Origin: Tribonema minus
Taxonomy: Eukaryota > Sar > Xanthophyceae > Tribonematales > Tribonemataceae
NCBI GenBank assembly: GCA_017506865.1
Contig: JAFCMP010000092.1
Coordinates: forward strand, 1 to 64,000
Length of the DNA: 64,000 nt
Direction: 5' to 3'
The first letter of the stretch is position 1. The number at the start of each line of letters is the position of its first letter. The position numbers and the translations under genes are program-made. This document shows positions 1 to 9,313 of this stretch, one piece after another. The notes under the pieces are model-generated. The model made no database searches and was not told the DNA's origin. It worked only from the letters and a program-made list of their open reading frames with translations.

Positions 1-640
1 GAGGTGGCACGCGGAGAGCTGACGGCCCACAAGAGCGTCTGCGTGCCCTGGCTCAAGAAGCGGCTGGAGAAGCTCAAGAAGGAAGGGAAGCCGCATGATC
101 AGCTTCAGGCCAGGCTGGAGAAGCTGAGGGGCAACAAGAAGCAGAAAAGTGAGTCCTATGACACTAAGTCTTCTGCAAACTTCATGAGTGGCATGCTTGA
201 GCATGAGCCTGCGCGTGTGCAATCCAAGGCGGGTCCCGATGCTCACTGCCACAAAACTTCAAGTTCAAGTTGCATGCGCATCCCCAGAGGCTAGCAAAGT
301 GGCCGGTGATGCAACTGCTCAGGTGAACCCAGAGGCTGATCCCGCAGCCTGCGAAGTCACTGGCACGCGTAACCATTTGCTAAGCCGTGAGGTCGGTACT
401 CGCATGCTAGCAGCTATCATGTGCGCCTGTTGCGTGGCTAGGTGCAATGACCATGACACCGACGCCAGAGCTGACGCAAAGCGCAAACGCAGCGTGCCGT
501 GCGCGGCGTCTACAGCGGTAAGTGGGAATGCCGATCTCACTGACCTTGCTTCCGATCTGTGCGCCACCCCCCGTGACACTTTCGTGCACTTGCAGACTAG
601 GAAGGGGATGCGTGCGCTCACGACGGAGAACCCGACGTGA
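1..640 (+). CDS. possible 3' end of retrotransposon gag / leader of pol (partial)
   Basis: Frame 1 is open from the window edge to a stop at 292-294 and encodes a Lys/Leu-rich, charged helical stretch. A second frame is open from 188 to the stop at 638-640 and overlaps the pol frame, which is open from 601. The pol frame lies in the -1 frame relative to it, the usual relation between gag and pol. Possible splice sites are also present (donors at 149 and 518, acceptor ending at 595), so a spliced leader is an alternative. No zinc knuckle or capsid motif was recognised. The assignment to gag rests on position alone. Confidence 0.3.
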
Positions 641-3600
641 CGGCCAGACCACTGCGAGTGGCAGAGCTTTGTTGCGGGGTGGGGGGTGTACATAGGGGGT
701 TAGAGGACTTTGCCAGACACACAGGTGTCAAGGCTGAAGTGGTCCTTGCTGTAGATAGGGCCGAATACACATGCGAGGCGTACAAGCACCAGTTCCCTGG
801 CACAGAAGTTCTATGTGCAGACATCGCCAGTCCAGCAGTGCTCAAGCGCCTCAAGCAGCTGGAACCCGATGCATTCTGGGTCACTGCCCCATGTGTTGAC
901 TTCTCGCCCTCGGGCAAGGGCGTTGAAGGCGAAGCGGCCAGCGTGTTGCCCTCCGTTGCACAGCTTGCTGTAAATGTACGGCCAAAATTGGTCTTTCACG
1001 AGAATGTGCCTCGAATGCTGTTGTCTGGGGCATGGGGCTGCGCCGACGGCCACATGCGTCAGGCGGGGTATTCGACCTTTGAGGTGCAATTTCGTGGCAC
1101 TGATGTTGATGGTGGAAGTTCACGCGAGCGCATCTATACTGTGTCTGCGTGCAACACCCAGGCCACCCCTGCACGTTTTGCCCGCCTGAATGCCCTGTTG
1201 AATGAGCGCTTTCGCAGCAGTACCCCAAAGACTGTGCGCGATTGCACTGGTTGCATGGAGGACACATTTTACTGGGATCCTCGTCAACCGCACCGTGCTG
1301 GCGTGCTTTCTACTGACATGCCACTGCCTAGCCCTGTGACTCGCCAACCTGGCAAGGGTCCCACAAGGTACGTACAGAGAGCCAAGGATGCCGGTCCTGC
1401 AAAGGACGCATTGATACTCTCGCCTGAACAGGTGATGGAGTGCCTGGGCTACCATGAGCCCTACCCTGAAGGCACACTCACCCAGAGACGCAAGTGGGCC
1501 GCTGACCTAGTACAGCCCGCGGCTGTAAGCGCCCTGATGCAGTGTGTTCATGCCGTTGCCTCTCTGCCCAATTGTTGGGAGAGACCTGCCCCCGCTGGCC
1601 CTGACGTAACTCCTGGAGAGGTAACAGTGCATGATCACACGGCGCCGCCGCCGGAGTGGGTCGTGGACGCATCGCAGCCAGCACTACTGAGGATCGCCGG
1701 GACCTGCTCAAGCGCGCTAGGGAGTGCTGCGAACTGGTGTTGGGAGAAAGGGAGAGCGTTTCTTGCTTCGCTGCGCCAAGGTGAGCCAGTGCAATTAAAT
1801 GAAGTACAGTGGCAACGCGGTGACGACGAGTCTGACTCTGATTCTGACTCACCAAGAGTAACCGTTGAGCCAGCAGTGCCTCAGTCGACTGCAACACCCA
1901 AGACGCCGATGGTAGAAGAGAGCGCTAACCCTGACTCTGACTCAGCGACACCACTGCAGACTCGCATGACACTGCACGAGTTGAAACCTAGGTGGGCAGC
2001 AAGAGGCAAAGCGCCCATGCCACTCCACAGAGTCACCCCGGTAGGGAGGCCACGCAAGAATGGCTTTGTGCACATGACCATGCGCACACAGGTGGGCGAT
2101 GCCGTGCAAGAGTTTGGTCTGGATACACTGGTGGATTGCGGCGCGGAGGCTGAGTTCATCAACAAAGATTCAGCGCACAAGCTGCCGCCGGGCACCATCT
2201 GCCCTCTGGCTGATGGGGACTTCACTACGGTGGAGCTCGCTGACGCCAAGAAGTCGGTACCTGTAGAAGGGGTGGTGCACGCTCAGGTGCGCTTCAAAGA
2301 CCACCTGCTGACGCACCGATTCTACGTCGTGGACCTGCCTTACCAGGCAATCTTAGGGTCAAACTTCTTTGGCAAGTACGGCTCCGTGATCTCCTACGAG
2401 CACGGGATGAAATTCTATCCCGCTGGCTCGTCAGGCCCCGCTGTGCCCATGCGTGAACGTGCGCGCGTTGGAGCCTTGGAGCCCCCCGAAGCAAACTCCA
2501 TCAAGATAGGCTCAGCAAGGGTACACACCAAGGACAAGCCTGTACTGCCAGAACGCAAATATCTTCTCAGAGCAGCCTCAAACCAGGTCATTGACGCTGA
2601 CACCGCGCACACGCTGGAAGTGGTGTCTCACCCGCCACTGCAGTGCACAGGTCCTGTAGAGGTGCTGCTAACCCCAGACGTCCCAGAAGCGGTGACGGCC
2701 GTGAACAAGTTGGCCGAGCAAGGCGTTGTGTTGCTGGACTCAGTAGATACTGCCATGCCGAACAAACCACTCAGGCTAATGGCTGAAAACACTTCCACAA
2801 TGCCAGTGCTCATCCGTAAGGGAGCAATACTAGGCGCTGTTGAAGCACCGGAGATGGTGTGCGGTCTAGACGTTGACCAAGAGACGCTCACAGCTAACCT
2901 CACGCGCATAGCGCTCAGCCGACTTTCTAGCGACCCCCCAACCGTAAATCAGGTGAAGCCTAGCTCAGATCCCACAGCAACCACGCAGGCTGAGGCGGAA
3001 CGCACCGCTCACAGGCGTAAGGTAGCTGAAGAGCACAATGCCACCTTAGAGCTCTGCACGGACGAGGAGCTGGCAGACGTGCTGAAGCGGGATGGTAAGG
3101 TGATACCTATGTTGGAAGAGCGCGACAAAGACGGTGTTAAGTACTACGATCGGGTCATGGAAGTGCTACGCCGCAGACGTGCTGCCTTTGCAAAAGACCC
3201 CAAAAACCCTAGGGTCACGGATCGCTTTGACGTGGACATTGATACCGGAGACGCGGCCCCCATAGCCGACAAGGCGCGGCGTTGGGCCGAGCGCGAGGCC
3301 AAAATCATTTTTCAAGCGATTCAGGACGAAAGGAAGCGTGGGCAAATCAGACCTGCTAGTGGGCCATGGGCCAGCAACCCTGTGCTGGTGGCTCAAAAGG
3401 GCAAGATACGCTTCTGTGTTGACTACAGACCGCTTAATAAGGTCACAAGGCGTGACGAATACGGCTTAGGCAACATGGAGGACTTGATTCAAAAGGTGGC
3501 AAGTTCAAGAATTTTCTCAGCTCTGGACTTTGCCTCAGGCTATAGGCAAATTCCCATGACCAAAGAGTCCTCTTGCAAGACGGCTTTCCGAGGGCCTGAT

Positions 3601-6600
3601 GGCTCCCTATGGGAGTACAAGGTCGCGCCGTTTGGACTAGTATGTCTGCCCAGCATTTTCACGCGCTGCATGCACGAGCTGTTAGGCGCTGCCAGACAGA
3701 CTCATGCGTGCGTGTATGTGGATGATGTGCTGGTTCACAGCAAAGGGCTTGAAGATCACATAGCTCACTTGGACGATGTGCTGCGTCGCGTGGAGGAGTA
3801 TGGCATGAGTGTGTCAAGGCACAAGTGTCAACTCTTCGCCGAGGAAGTGACATACCTAGGTCACAAAGTCGGCCGGTATGGCATTAGGCCGTGTGAAGAC
3901 AAGGTCAAGGCCATGGTGGACATGATGCCCCCGCTCGGTAAGGATGGCAAGGTTGACAAACGTCTCATGCAAGTTTTGATGGGATGTTTCAACTACTACA
4001 GGCGCTACATTCACCGATTTGCGTCCATCGCGGCGCCATTGATGGAGTGTACCAGGGACGGTGCTGACATGACATGGAATAAACGCCGTCGAGATGCACT
4101 CGCAGAGCTCAAACGCGCGATGTCGAGCGCACCCGTTATCATGCACCCAGATTTTGACCTGCCATTCATAGTACACACAGATGCTAGCAAGTTGGCAGTC
4201 GCTGGAGTGCTATCCCAGTTTGTGCCACTTGAGAAGCTTCGAGAGCGGCACAAAGATTTTCCATGGGCTCACACCCGCCGTGCCAAGACGGTGGATGGTA
4301 AGCCAGCCAGAGAGGTAGTTGTAGCATTTTACAGCAAAGTCAATTCAGTGCAAGACGCAAAGCTAGGTGCCACCGCGCTGGAATGCCTTGCTGTAGTGCT
4401 GGCCCTGAACAACTTCCGCTCATACGTGTGGGGTAGGCCAGTAACCGTCATTACAGATGCGTCGGCACTGCGCTGGTTGCTAAAACTGAATAACCATAAT
4501 AGCAAACTCCTGCACTGGGCCATGCGCCTCCAGGAATATGACGTCATGGTCGTACACCGCCCTGGTAAGGACAGTGGCAATGCGGACTGCCCCTCACGAA
4601 TGCCTCAAATGACGGAAATCCTGGGCCCCAGAGAGTATGACCACGCTGATGAGCAGTGGCCAGACTGTACGGATGCAGGACCTGCTCCGCCTACTGGGGT
4701 ACGCTTTGAGAGCGAAGAAGTCGTGGATTCCCCCGCGAATATAGGCAGGATTGGGGCTTATGCCTCATACCCAGATGGCCCTGGCATGCGCTTTAACAAA
4801 GTCGCACAGGTATCCCCAGACCTGAGCGAGGCCATGCTCAAACTTAACCCCGCACAAGTGCAAGATGCTTTGTTTGACACCTCGCTTGAAAGCAGCAGTG
4901 GGGACGCCGTGCTTTTCAAAGAAGAGGGAGGTGAGCAGCCGGAGCAGTCGGAGCCGGAGCTGCAGGAGCTGGCGCTGGCGTCAATGCTTTGCAATCTGCG
5001 CACCGGAGTGTACCCAGATGGCGTGTGGGATAGCTGCGCATCACTCTTGGCACAGCAAACGGGTGAGCGTACCGAAACCGAGAACTGTGAAAGCAGCAGC
5101 GAGCAGGAACCTCAACTTCAAGTAGACATGATGTCAGTTGATAGCCCTGTTCAACCCCCCGCGCCAGCAACCTCGGAACACCCTGGGGACCTTGCAGGAG
5201 GAAGCTCAGGTCAGCCCGCAGTGCTTGAGCGCGATAAATTTGTGCAATGGCAAGGGCGTGACTCTTTCTGCATGGCTGTGAGGAATTACCTAGAGGACCG
5301 CAATGAACCTTCTGATGCCAAGTTGGCAAAGTTCATACCCCAGAACCAAGAATTCTTCACGCTAGAGCCTGATGGCCTGTTGGTGCACTTCGCAGCCAGT
5401 CGCCCCAAGAGGGGAGCCCTGATCACACAGTGGGTCACCCCTGAGGCACTGAAGCCCCTGGTGCTACGCATGTGTCACGACGATGGCAGCGCTCAGCACT
5501 CATCGACCGCCGCCACGCACGCCAAGGTGTTTGAGAACTTCTACTGGCGCGGCATGGGAGCTGACATTCGCGACTACGTGCGCAGTTGCATAGCGTGCCA
5601 ACAGACCAAACCTCAGACGACAGCTCAGTACAAGCAAGTGCTCATGCCCCCTCAGCGCATGTGGCAGCGTCTTCACGTAGACTTCACTGAGCCAGGAGTC
5701 ATATCTCTTGAGGGGCACCGCTACCTACTCGTGATAGTGGAAGCCAGGTCTGGCTATTGCTGGATTTTCCCCACTAAAAAAAGATCCGCTGCTGAGGTAG
5801 CTCCCCTGCTTGCGAAGGTGCTGCTTGAATGTGGCACACTGGTGGAGGAGTTGTGCTCGGACGGAGCCAAGGAATTTGTGGGTGCGTTGGTGACTAGCCT
5901 CTGCCGGGCCTTTGCTGTTCAGAAGGTAGAGACTAGCGCGTACCACCCCCAGTCTAACGGTGTCGCTGAGAACTTGAACGGTCGTGTCAAGAGGGCCCTG
6001 GCCAGAGTGTGCTCGCACTACCAGAATCGTTGGCACGAACAAGTTGACATCGTACAGTTTGCACTGAGGAACACTCCCAGGGAAGAGACAGGCCTTACGC
6101 CTTTCTTCTGTGTCTTCGGTTGCGAGGCCAGATTCCCCCTAAATGCCCTCATCTCTAAGCCAGAGTGCACGACAGATCTGCACATAGAGGTGAAGCGGTT
6201 ACAAGAGAATCTGAAGCTGGCAGAGTCTGTCATAGGCGAGGCGTTAAGCTCCAGGGCTGAGCGCATCCAAGCTCGTAACGACAAGATTCAACGCACCCTG
6301 CATGTAAGTGTAGGCGACTATGTATGGGTCAAAAAGCCGCCCTCTGAAGGACGCGCGAGTGGCCTGGAGGAGCGCTTCACCGGACCCTGGAGGCTGATAG
6401 CACCCTACGGTGACTCAGGGCTGTCATTTCAATGTCAACTCAATGGCGCGCGTATGCGGCTCACTGATGCACACGTGGAAAACATGAAGCCGTATCACCC
6501 TAGGCCTGCTAGACTGGTCAGCGACGGAGTACAAGCCGCCGTAGACCCAGAGCAGCTGAAAGAACTGGACCTTGATCAGCGGTTACAGAGAATTCTAGAC

Positions 6601-7482
6601 CGCAGGGCTAATGAGGACGGTAGCTGGTCATACAAGTGGCTGGCACGCGACGGTACCTCGTCTGAGTGGATTCATGAGAAGGAGTTTGCAGAGAGTTTCA
6701 TAGTGCCGTCCTGGGTGCTAGACACTTTTCATGCCCTCTATGAGATCCAACACGAAGGTCACATGCCGTCGTACGCAGAACGCCCTAGCCCACGTGAGGA
6801 CCGCTCACTACCCAAAGACGAAGCGTTGAAGCGCTACCCTTGTGGCACTCAGGTGGTAAGGCAAATTTCAGGTGCCGATCCCGAGACCACTGAGTACATT
6901 TGGGGCCAAGTGCGCGACTTCGTACGATTTAAGTGGCGAGTGCGTTACACGGATGGAATTTGGGAGGACCTGACATCGGCACAGGTACGCTCGGGGAAGT
7001 TGCTAGCAGAAGGTGTGCGAGACAGGCTACGCAGGCTGGCGCGTGAACGAGGCAAGCCTGACCCTGCTGAGCATGCTGCAGATGTTACAGCTGACCCGCC
7101 CCCAGGCGTGCGAGTCACGGTGTGCCCCCACGTTCCCACCAACTTTGGGCCACTGTACGTCGGGCAAGTACTGCGCTACAGGTTCCCAACGGGCTGGAGC
7201 CGTGGCAAACTGCTAAGGCACATCTCATCGAACCGTGAGCGCGGGGAGCACGTATTTGATGTAGAGTTCCCCAATACGCGCGGAAACAGGCCGATGGAGA
7301 GGCGCCTGAAGCTCCGCCAAGAGTACTACCGCGACGATCGCAACGCTGAACCTTCCTCGTGGAACCTGCTATTGGCACAGGAAGTCATAGAGCAGCCTGA
7401 AACCCCCCACACTCCCATAGAACCTCAGGTTGCGTTGGGCCAGAATGACCTAGGACCGCGCAAACGCCCGCGTCGCCGTTGA
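637..7482 (+). CDS. DNA (cytosine-5)-methyltransferase / gypsy Pol polyprotein
   Basis: The product is a 2281-residue polyprotein. Residues 6-310 form a C5-methyltransferase: ELCCGVGG (motif I, 10-17), PC with catalytic Cys86 (motif IV), ENV 122-124 (VI), RER 163-165 (VIII), then motif IX- and X-like segments near 262-305. An acidic linker follows. Next come an aspartic protease (DCGA at 500, ILG near 572), reverse transcriptase (about 890-1085, YVDD 1027-1030) and RNase H (D1182, E1249, D1274). The integrase has an HHCC finger ending C1651/C1654 and a D1682, D1742, E1778 triad with exact D-35-E spacing. A GPY/F-like module, a chromodomain (about 1978-2035) and two Tudor-like segments (about 2067-2125 and 2170-2240, tentative) end the protein. 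The first codon given is GTG; the frame is open from 601 with no convincing ATG, so expression by frameshift or splicing from upstream is likely. Confidence 0.95.
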   Translation: MTARPLRVAELCCGVGGVHRGLEDFARHTGVKAEVVLAVDRAEYTCEAYKHQFPGTEVLCADIASPAVLKRLKQLEPDAFWVTAPCVDFSPSGKGVEGEAASVLPSVAQLAVNVRPKLVFHENVPRMLLSGAWGCADGHMRQAGYSTFEVQFRGTDVDGGSSRERIYTVSACNTQATPARFARLNALLNERFRSSTPKTVRDCTGCMEDTFYWDPRQPHRAGVLSTDMPLPSPVTRQPGKGPTRYVQRAKDAGPAKDALILSPEQVMECLGYHEPYPEGTLTQRRKWAADLVQPAAVSALMQCVHAVASLPNCWERPAPAGPDVTPGEVTVHDHTAPPPEWVVDASQPALLRIAGTCSSALGSAANWCWEKGRAFLASLRQGEPVQLNEVQWQRGDDESDSDSDSPRVTVEPAVPQSTATPKTPMVEESANPDSDSATPLQTRMTLHELKPRWAARGKAPMPLHRVTPVGRPRKNGFVHMTMRTQVGDAVQEFGLDTLVDCGAEAEFINKDSAHKLPPGTICPLADGDFTTVELADAKKSVPVEGVVHAQVRFKDHLLTHRFYVVDLPYQAILGSNFFGKYGSVISYEHGMKFYPAGSSGPAVPMRERARVGALEPPEANSIKIGSARVHTKDKPVLPERKYLLRAASNQVIDADTAHTLEVVSHPPLQCTGPVEVLLTPDVPEAVTAVNKLAEQGVVLLDSVDTAMPNKPLRLMAENTSTMPVLIRKGAILGAVEAPEMVCGLDVDQETLTANLTRIALSRLSSDPPTVNQVKPSSDPTATTQAEAERTAHRRKVAEEHNATLELCTDEELADVLKRDGKVIPMLEERDKDGVKYYDRVMEVLRRRRAAFAKDPKNPRVTDRFDVDIDTGDAAPIADKARRWAEREAKIIFQAIQDERKRGQIRPASGPWASNPVLVAQKGKIRFCVDYRPLNKVTRRDEYGLGNMEDLIQKVASSRIFSALDFASGYRQIPMTKESSCKTAFRGPDGSLWEYKVAPFGLVCLPSIFTRCMHELLGAARQTHACVYVDDVLVHSKGLEDHIAHLDDVLRRVEEYGMSVSRHKCQLFAEEVTYLGHKVGRYGIRPCEDKVKAMVDMMPPLGKDGKVDKRLMQVLMGCFNYYRRYIHRFASIAAPLMECTRDGADMTWNKRRRDALAELKRAMSSAPVIMHPDFDLPFIVHTDASKLAVAGVLSQFVPLEKLRERHKDFPWAHTRRAKTVDGKPAREVVVAFYSKVNSVQDAKLGATALECLAVVLALNNFRSYVWGRPVTVITDASALRWLLKLNNHNSKLLHWAMRLQEYDVMVVHRPGKDSGNADCPSRMPQMTEILGPREYDHADEQWPDCTDAGPAPPTGVRFESEEVVDSPANIGRIGAYASYPDGPGMRFNKVAQVSPDLSEAMLKLNPAQVQDALFDTSLESSSGDAVLFKEEGGEQPEQSEPELQELALASMLCNLRTGVYPDGVWDSCASLLAQQTGERTETENCESSSEQEPQLQVDMMSVDSPVQPPAPATSEHPGDLAGGSSGQPAVLERDKFVQWQGRDSFCMAVRNYLEDRNEPSDAKLAKFIPQNQEFFTLEPDGLLVHFAASRPKRGALITQWVTPEALKPLVLRMCHDDGSAQHSSTAATHAKVFENFYWRGMGADIRDYVRSCIACQQTKPQTTAQYKQVLMPPQRMWQRLHVDFTEPGVISLEGHRYLLVIVEARSGYCWIFPTKKRSAAEVAPLLAKVLLECGTLVEELCSDGAKEFVGALVTSLCRAFAVQKVETSAYHPQSNGVAENLNGRVKRALARVCSHYQNRWHEQVDIVQFALRNTPREETGLTPFFCVFGCEARFPLNALISKPECTTDLHIEVKRLQENLKLAESVIGEALSSRAERIQARNDKIQRTLHVSVGDYVWVKKPPSEGRASGLEERFTGPWRLIAPYGDSGLSFQCQLNGARMRLTDAHVENMKPYHPRPARLVSDGVQAAVDPEQLKELDLDQRLQRILDRRANEDGSWSYKWLARDGTSSEWIHEKEFAESFIVPSWVLDTFHALYEIQHEGHMPSYAERPSPREDRSLPKDEALKRYPCGTQVVRQISGADPETTEYIWGQVRDFVRFKWRVRYTDGIWEDLTSAQVRSGKLLAEGVRDRLRRLARERGKPDPAEHAADVTADPPPGVRVTVCPHVPTNFGPLYVGQVLRYRFPTGWSRGKLLRHISSNRERGEHVFDVEFPNTRGNRPMERRLKLRQEYYRDDRNAEPSSWNLLLAQEVIEQPETPHTPIEPQVALGQNDLGPRKRPRRR

Positions 7483-7728
7483 AGCTGTGCTGACCCTGTG
7501 CGTTAGCACTGGAGAGCAGTGTCATCGTCACGCACCCGGTGCACGCCAGACCGCCTAGGGTTTGACACGCGCCGCGTAGCCGGCCAATGAGGGACTTGAG
7601 AGCGTGTACCGTGGTGGTGATGATGCGACAATGAACACCGATGCTGTCTTCTGCGTTTAACAAGTATCATAAAACGCCGTGCGTCTCATGGGCGCGCCGT
7701 GGACGGCGGCCCTTTCAAAGAAGAGGGA
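7483..7728 (+). other. retrotransposon 3' internal non-coding region with polypurine tract
   Basis: This is the stretch between the pol stop codon and the LTR. It ends in a purine run at 7717-7728 (AAAGAAGAGGGA) placed directly before the TG that opens the LTR, the position expected for a plus-strand primer. No coding potential was recognised. Confidence 0.6.
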
Positions 7729-9313
7729 TGATACAAAGTCCATGTCACAGTGCAGTTCAAGTGCTGTGTACACCTTTGACTGTACTGTACAAGTGTACTT
7801 CAGGCCAGTTCACCTGAGGACCGTTCCTAGGAATTTGCTTGGACTGTTCCAGGAACTACTTGCACAGAACAATCTGGGGCAGCATCTCTGTGGCTTGCTT
7901 GGGTACTAACTCTTGCTAGCCAGCTGCTGGACAGCAGGGACTCATTGGAGCTGAGCCATCACCGATACACCAGGTGTGTGGTCTTTTCTCCATGCAAGTG
8001 GTTAGCCTACATCCTGAGAGTGAGCTCCTGTTTCCCAGAAGGGCTTGGCCTGCTCATGGAGCATCCCCAGAGGCCTTTCCTTTCGGATCATATTCATCTT
8101 GTTCGGGCCGCACACTCTCAATTCTGTGGATTTTCTAGCATCATGCAGGGCTGTCTAGCTCATGCGCCTCCTGCATTCTGGCGGGGGGGGTCAGTCGCGC
8201 CTGCCTGCGAGCGAGCGTAACCGGCTCGTATCATGCGCCTGTCAAGGCTCGCATGGACATAGGCCACAATTACATCCTCCAGGGCGCGGTGATGCACAGC
8301 TCAACTACTCGACTCGTGCTGAGACTCGTGCTCTTGCAACTGGCTCTCTGGCTCCTGGCTCCGTGTCATCCCTCCCCCTTTTCTCAAGGCTGTGCGCACC
8401 CTCCTGGGTGACCGCCGCACCAGCATTGCTTAGGTAGCCACCCCTACCATAACCTCTAGATACGTGAGGCCTCACTTTAGCGGATTTTTCTCTCGTGATT
8501 GAGTGTGCCCGTTAACAAGCTTCGCCTAGGTGATCGCTGGCACCGCTTTTCTCAGTAACGGTGTGGGATTTATAGCTCAGCATACCCAGCATTCCATGCC
8601 CAGTGCACTCGTTAAGCGGTACACATATCATCGAAGCGACGGGTAGATGCCAGGTTGAAGTTCGCAAAAAACAAGCCAACGAGCACTCGCAACGGCAGCG
8701 TTAGGGGTGACGAGGCTAGGTATGATCGGTTGCCATCTGATACGAAAAAACTAGGTGGTAATTTGTGAAGATGTGTGATGTGGGATGAGTAAGATGCTAT
8801 GTTGAAGCTGACTTTTGGTGAGCAGTTGAGAAACAGAGAGAGGTAGAGAGAGAGAGAGAGCACAGAGACAAGTTAGGGATCACCTGTGTTAATGTAGCGG
8901 TCCTCACAGCTAGCTGCACAGTCCAATGCTTGGGTGGGGGGCTTCCCTCAGTCTTGCTCCAGCGAGTTCCAGGAAGAGAAGTGTGATACTCTCAATCTCT
9001 GGCCAGCTAGGAACTAGGGTTAGAACTACAAATGTGAAGTTGCATACAAACACCTAGAGACATCATATAGGAAGCCCTGGTACCTAGAACTCTCTGATGG
9101 TATGTCACCCTTTCAGCTAAGGTGCACATACCCAAAGCCGTAACAATAGCATACATGCACATGATGATAGCGCCCTGGAGGTGGTTTTTAAACCGTTTGG
9201 GGGTTTTAGGGGTTTTTTTTTTTGAACTGCATTTGCAGCTTTTGAGCTGGTTGTTGGCAGTATGCCATTGCTCCCTATGTGCTCGGTAGCGCAGCTGTCC
9301 GAGTGGAGTATCA
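7729..9313 (+). repeat. 3' long terminal repeat (about 1585 bp)
   Basis: The LTR starts TGATAC just after the purine tract and ends GTATCA. These are perfect 6-bp inverted termini of the TG...CA type. The interval contains no conserved ORF. It has a GA-rich microsatellite near 8836-8862 and a T-run near 9210-9221. The matching 5' LTR is outside the window, so the boundaries are inferred from the termini and the purine tract only. Confidence 0.65.

Follow-up and report, generated by a model that had tools for sequence, protein, structure and literature searches.

A C5-cytosine methyltransferase domain in the polyproteins of Ty3/gypsy LTR retrotransposons of the xanthophyte alga Tribonema minus

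Results

The window analysed here is the first 64,000 nucleotides of contig JAFCMP010000092.1 (C92) from Tribonema minus (assembly GCA_017506865.1). At its start lies what is almost certainly, judging from its anatomy, the 3' part of a Ty3/gypsy long terminal repeat (LTR) retrotransposon, a member of a family with recent insertions, whose polyprotein includes a C5-cytosine methyltransferase (MTase) domain (Table 1). The open frame runs for 2293 amino acids (aa) without a stop, and the order of weak protease, reverse transcriptase (RT), RNase H, and integrase behind its MTase fits Ty3/gypsy; the closest solved sequence to the RT is that of Ty3. The MTase match scored 61 bits against a Pfam cut-off of 22 and shares one reading frame with the RT, RNase H, and integrase domains, which bears out the fusion named in the original prediction. 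The domains that the prediction placed behind the MTase were recovered in part. RT, RNase H, and integrase stood, with the integrase core (rve) at 31.0 bits, below its cut-off of 32.6. The protease is weak, and matches at the same place in relatives (family D, 0.00018; ENA protein P0012, 7.9e-5) were likewise below the Pfam cut-off. For the chromodomain, no Pfam match was found in 6400-6780 at E up to 5 (HMMER's filters let few matches above 0.1 through), a region that is chromodomain-like by eye only. Other weak matches were the Tudor-like PF21743, also seen in the ENA protein P0013 (E 0.0074), and SH3_Tf2-1 in family C (0.0069).

Table 1. Features of the retrotransposon copy at the start of the window; motif numbers (I, VIII, X, and the rest) are what we take to be the usual ones, and values are E values
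Feature	Position	Strand	Basis
3' part of gag	1..600	+	Match to gag part of L010 frame
Open frame: MTase, protease, RT, RNase H, integrase, C-terminal extension	601..7482	+	Open reading frame and Pfam
C5-cytosine methyltransferase domain	637..1560	+	DNA_methylase (PF00145) 1.7e-16; alignment
MTase motif I GxGG	about 676-687	+	Alignment
MTase Cys86	892-894	+	Alignment
MTase Glu-Asn	1000-1005	+	Alignment
MTase RxR	1123-1131	+	Alignment
MTase altered motif X	about 1495-1518	+	Alignment
Putative aspartyl protease	2122..2373	+	Weak Pfam match, best E 0.011, below cut-off
Reverse transcriptase	3397..3870	+	RVT_1 2.2e-32; Ty3 RT 4e-53
RNase H	4150..4539	+	RT_RNaseH 1.1e-22
Integrase: H2C2 zinc binding domain and core	5440..5949	+	Integrase_H2C2 1.3e-17; rve 3.3e-7, below cut-off
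Weak Tudor-like stretch in C-terminal extension	about 6895..6987	+	PF21743 E 0.026, below cut-off
Polypurine tract before 3' LTR	7717..7728	+	By eye; same in family B
3' LTR, 362 bp, TG..CA	7729..8090	+	100% to 5' LTRs of L009, L010, and L011; 99.7% to L012
14-nt LTR stretch, exact complement of the primer binding site in other family A copies (likely self-primer)	7945..7958	+	

Because the window begins at base 1 of the contig, this copy is without the 5' LTR, the leader, the primer binding site (PBS), and most of gag. Set against aligned copies, it has two sites upstream of the MTase at which its length is off by a single base, which is why the frame seems to begin at the MTase. A Pol that begins with the MTase, as first described, is thus how the window copy appears. 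Intact copies do not start with it: other copies have Gag, MTase, and Pol in a single frame, and in the sister copy L010, Gag and MTase lie in one reading frame.

Many families have the C5-MTase as a regular part of their polyprotein, located after Gag and before the protease. Genome-wide searches together gave 251 raw MTase matches, merged into 225 loci among the matches listed; four of these are not retroelement loci (three virus-like genes, L038-L040, and an exon of the host's DNMT2, L041), and the related retroelement loci number about 220 among the matches listed. In one of these searches, 122 of 384 candidates were scored and 124 matches listed, with intact copies ranked first. Identity among the matches listed was 95-100% in family A (except partial rows), 57-65% in family B, and mostly 33-37% in the others. 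By hand count, 102 of the 108 listed matches of at least 285 aa were free of stops (A, 17/18; B, 27/31; others, 58/59), and a further 16 listed matches were partial. Of the 105 RT matches listed, among which one copy counts twice because it is split, 93 have an MTase upstream on the same strand, at a distance of 1962-5965 bp, mostly 2.75-3.07 kb. The other 12 have none within 9 kb upstream among the matches listed; for three of them (C218, C507, and C27) an MTase lies 9.7-13.1 kb upstream, the pattern expected from nested insertion, and one of the B type (C257) has no MTase at all among the matches listed. Among the matches listed, other copies therefore do not, as a rule, lack the domain or carry it broken, which speaks against the refuting condition named in the original prediction. 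Families C, D, and E show the same domain order, with the MTase before the RT in one frame. In family H, where the MTase is more canonical, a gypsy RT-RNase H follows about 2.7 kb downstream in the same strand and frame. Two polyproteins in ENA, P0012 and P0013 (3112 and 3241 aa; MTase 45-47%), also have the order MTase, protease, RT, RNase H, integrase. The longest listed open frame in family A was 3501 aa.

The original prediction had proposed to look for full-length copies with both LTRs, and LTR pairs were found in sister copies. The sister copies have 362-bp LTRs with TG..CA ends, a polypurine tract, and a PBS, the usual signs of an LTR element, and six of eight flank pairs compared gave an LTR pair: four without any difference, one differing at 1 of 362 positions, and one at 2 of 407. 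The remaining two were a tandem of two elements and a pair without a match. Target duplications of 4 bp were seen by eye in three A copies (C4, C434, and C513) and two B copies (C404 and C423).

Three further observations concern these copies. On C69, two family C elements (L020 and L034) stand in tandem with apparently one LTR in common. On C311, the listed frame around an element's MTase and RT is open for 6208 aa, roughly double what is usual. The public T. minus gene model P0016 (JKP88DRAFT_354395) is 99.5% identical to the L010 Gag over 208 aa and has further Pol pieces; it joins retrotransposon pieces to an EGF-like host gene and omits most of the MTase and RT, so the domain may have stayed hidden. 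This protein identifies the host as T. minus or a very close relative, and the idea of a green (volvocine) alga was dropped; light-harvesting genes are present, and no pherophorin match was found, a weak negative because the control also drew a blank.

The MTase is under purifying selection. The ratio of nonsynonymous to synonymous substitution rates (dN/dS) was 0.100, 0.137, and 0.124 in three diverged B pairs (dS 0.84-1.18), 0.155 and 0.167 within D, 0.18 for C against E, 0.23 for C against D, and 0.13-0.19 for A against B, the last at a dS of 1.7-2.4, near saturation. Pairs at 99% identity carry little information (A against A gave 0.32 on very few changes, and the E pair was not computable). 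The RT is conserved more than the MTase (90% against 64% between A and B), and its dS is saturated between families. An accidental fusion or an assembly artefact without function could account for the 12 of 105 listed RT matches without a listed MTase and for the stops in 6 of the 108 long MTase matches; purifying selection, the many families, the stereotyped spacing, and the same architecture in foreign proteins largely refute it, and we give it next to no credence.

By sequence, the PF00145 match together with the catalytic PC, ENV, and RxR places the window domain in the C5-cytosine methyltransferase superfamily. Gly14, Gly16, and Gly17 (motif I), Cys86, Glu122-Asn123, Arg163, and Arg165 are invariant in 12 aligned sequences, and catalytic residues are kept at identities down to about 33%. 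The description of a complete MTase with every catalytic residue accordingly holds for motif I, Cys86, ENV, and RxR and needs a caveat at motif X, which is altered. In families A to F the usual GN of motif X is replaced and the Gln of motif VIII is altered; in families G and H motif X is closer to canonical. Such changes would suit a decoy against silencing or another non-enzymatic part, one that binds S-adenosylmethionine, DNA, or silencing factors or aids particle assembly and does not methylate. A purely structural role would not need the catalytic Cys, ENV, and RxR that are invariant in the 12 sequences, and we consider this explanation rather improbable. Motif IV reads PCV in the window, SCV, PCT, or PCS in relatives, and PCN in DNMT3A; the earlier suggestion that PCV hints at an unusual specificity found no clear signal here.

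Directly behind the 5' LTR, 14 bases in A and 13 in B are an exact complement of a stretch of the LTR itself (position 217 or 209), with agreement among the four A copies read. Outside that stretch, the LTRs of A and B have diverged strongly. The maximum in 2000 shuffles each was 11 (A) and 12 (B) bases, and among 2700 overlapping host windows three reached at least 12, the highest being 14. Families A and B likely use self-priming of the Tf1/sushi kind, as far as the pairing of these bases can tell; the lowest-energy folds of the supposed A and B leaders lack the duplex of 5' end and PBS, which speaks against it. In the self-priming chromoviruses Tf1/Sushi and Tcn1, as in A and B, the PBS complements the element's own leader region and the Pol is of gypsy type (PMC6317226). 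Among plant chromoviruses, self-priming is reported for Tcn1 only, of a clade related to Tf1/Sushi (PMC6317226). The MTase, with 0 occurrences in the available part of that paper, is a feature of the elements described here, in which no chromodomain was found by Pfam. Families C and E differ from the Tf1/Sushi type, with no LTR complement of the PBS found in either. In C and D (5' end of L020; upstream of the frame in L023), the LTR or its likely end is followed by TGGCACC and, a few bases on, by AGACAGTCCTTACC; TGGCACC is a PBS type other than that of A and B.

A transfer RNA (tRNA) primer is unlikely in A and B because the PBS complements the element's own LTR and no fitting tRNA gene was found; one tRNA pattern gave 0 hits and a looser one gave 2, neither with the PBS complement. 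A connection between DNMT2 and the primer tRNA was considered for A and B when the PBS first resembled the complement of a tRNA-Asp-like end, and was dropped once the LTR complement was found.

CpG is nearly absent from the LTRs of A and B, where the observed/expected ratios are 0.13 (3 observed, 23.9 expected) and 0.13 (3 and 23.8). The comparison was with host windows of 362 bp rather than with MTase-free LTRs; their mean was 0.75, with 0 of 911 (overlapping) at or below 0.15 and 0.8% at or below 0.3. In family D the ratio was 0.46 in the 400 bp before the PBS. The element bodies of A, B, C, and E had host-like means of 0.77-0.83, and for that reason selection acting on the promoter seems a better reading of the low CpG of the LTRs than decay in general. 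Among 33 singleton differences in five A copies (L009-L012 and the window copy), 14 were G>A and 4 were C>T, with 6 of these 18 in CpG. This strand bias, in small numbers, is as editing or errors of minus-strand complementary DNA (cDNA) could give.

In a tree of 29 rows, 17 retroelement-type MTases formed one clade (support 97/96), with DNMT1, DNMT2, DNMT3A, bacterial, phage, and virus-like rows outside it. A 32-row tree, from which the near-duplicate G_L042 and the garbled P0005 of the 29-row tree were dropped, gave the clade the same support. Among these rows, from which DNMT4, DNMT5, DNMT6, ChloroDNMT, and published retroelement MTases are excluded, "orphan" seems a fair word for a lineage set apart from DNMT1, DNMT2, and DNMT3. 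The MTase phylogeny named as a check in the original prediction thus came out as a separate clade whose union with DNMT2 or DNMT3A is not rejected in the full set: the approximately unbiased test (p-AU) gave 0.16 for a union with DNMT2 (0.053 without families G and H) and 0.088 for a union with the single DNMT3A row (0.005, rejected, without G and H).

Against solved sequences, the window domain matched DNMT2 at 1.2e-9 and HhaI at 0.0095, or 7e-12 and 2.7e-8 with a profile. The DNMT2/TRDMT1 tRNA methyltransferases are its closest solved relatives over motifs I-VIII, the similarity ending before the target-recognition part, yet the four DNMT2 rows, the host's included, form a clade of their own (100/99) with the retroelement MTases outside. 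The enzyme could accordingly be a DNMT2-like RNA methyltransferase that acts on tRNA or genomic RNA for stability, translation, or priming, as these best matches and the unrejected union would allow. The separate DNMT2 clade, the lack in the retroelement MTases of CFT, a motif of DNMT2, and the poor case for a tRNA primer in A and B all oppose this, and we regard it as unlikely, though worth keeping in view.

A DNMT3 origin as in Klebsormidium is disfavoured, since the tree places the MTase apart and no DNMT3 chain was matched at E up to 1 in a profile search of solved sequences. Because it groups apart from the DNMT1, DNMT2, and DNMT3 rows in a retroelement-type clade, the MTase looks like a capture separate from that of KnitGypsy-Dnmt3. 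The MTase and RT trees have largely the same shape: A joins B, P0012-P0014 come next, and C, D, and E stand apart. They conflict over P0014 alone, which the MTase tree joins to P0012 and P0013 (91/88) and the RT tree to A and B (88/86); this agreement fits an old capture followed mainly by joint descent. For a viral or bacterial origin, an IMG/VR scan with the alignment gave one phage Dcm-like gene at 28%. No relative came from scans with single proteins (D, A, H, and G) or from searching GTDB with the window protein; single-protein scans reach close relatives only.

Some side observations accompany the trees. Two proteins from other sources, P0015 and P0009, have MTases of the same clade. That of P0015 branches inside it, and the protein has an RT-like stretch by eye and no RT by Pfam; exchange of the MTase between element classes is no more than a lead here. 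The RT of family H has a very long branch (6.5) in the RT tree. L038, L039, and L040 (C223 and C181) are stand-alone Dcm-like MTase genes with the genome's highest PF00145 scores; on the opposite strand adjoining one of them is a frame that resembles a dNMP kinase by eye, and these regions may be endogenous giant-virus stretches. L041 (C523:358815-359333) groups with DNMT2 in the tree.

Discussion

From the sequences and by analogy with other elements, we put at about even chances that the MTase methylates the element's own DNA, either the cDNA or the new copy. The protease would cut the single polyprotein, and the MTase would be packaged together with RT and integrase; its target would be the cDNA or the freshly inserted copy. 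Since the LTRs of families A and B have hardly any CpG, these elements would be methylated at CpG in their coding part, and the LTR promoter would escape. The element could thereby mark itself, passing as methylated host DNA or damping recombination and cryptic transcription, without silencing itself. Maintenance methylation by the host's DNMT5, elsewhere a maintenance enzyme, could keep the mark. DNMT5, HELLS, a putative CDCA7, and a protein in a DNMT4-annotated clade are reported for T. minus, and no DNMT1 (PMC10538959, available part). A precedent is the CG methylation that MTase domains from SymbioDIRS elements bring about in yeast (PMC5890265).

Several points weigh against self-methylation. 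The best solved relatives over motifs I-VIII are RNA enzymes, and motifs X and VIII are altered in families A to F. The LTRs of E (0.37) and C (0.52) are less depleted in CpG, and the depletion in A and B is measured against host windows. No decay of 5-methylcytosine was seen, with no CpG loss in the bodies and no clear signature in the singletons of the five A copies. In yeast, no activity was detected for the KnitGypsy and SymbioLINE domains, a result that its authors call inconclusive (PMC5890265); of the two, the KnitGypsy domain is the gypsy-borne one.

The many copies could also yield much enzyme, and a released MTase might mainly act on the chromatin of the host or on competing elements; an overflow of methylation to host DNA has been raised (PMC5890265). 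Selection per copy would favour action in cis, and a writer directed at the host seems doubtful to us. Self-methylation could also reach further: retrotransposon-borne orphan MTases might be the main de novo CpG writers, with new copies methylating their own bodies, host DNMT5 maintaining the mark, and CpG-free LTRs exempting the promoter. On the present sequences we would give that idea a slim chance.

Capture of MTases by retroelements was known before from dinoflagellates and one charophyte (PMC5890265), as the original prediction had said. KnitGypsy-Dnmt3 of the charophyte Klebsormidium nitens likewise has a cytosine MTase in a gypsy Pol polyprotein, with key residues kept and Ka/Ks <0.2; it is of the Dnmt3 class with a DIRS-like repeat structure (PMC5890265; compared by description). 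The elements described here differ in an MTase apart from DNMT3A and placed between Gag and protease, in ordinary LTRs, and in a stramenopile host. SymbioLINE-Dnmt and SymbioDIRS-Dnmt3 of Symbiodinium are also retroelement cytosine MTases, SymbioLINE again of an orphan lineage, but sit in LINE and DIRS rather than gypsy elements (PMC5890265; compared by description). Eukaryotic orphan DNMTs similarly fall outside the ancestral families, some of them in mobile or viral elements; those named in the available part of PMC12344493 are from dinoflagellate LINEs and viral insertions, not from xanthophyte gypsy elements, again compared by description. For xanthophytes and other ochrophytes, no description of a retrotransposon with an MTase was found in the available parts of the open-licence PMC literature (subscription papers and preprints lie outside that scope).

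What is new is the stramenopile host (Xanthophyceae, Ochrophyta), an MTase lineage that in these trees does not group with DNMT1, DNMT2, or DNMT3, and the many families with recent intact copies. With so many families and recent intact copies, the question of why an element keeps a silencing-type enzyme becomes testable in one organism, and the CpG-poor LTRs beside a CpG-normal body give a direct prediction for long-read methylation calls.

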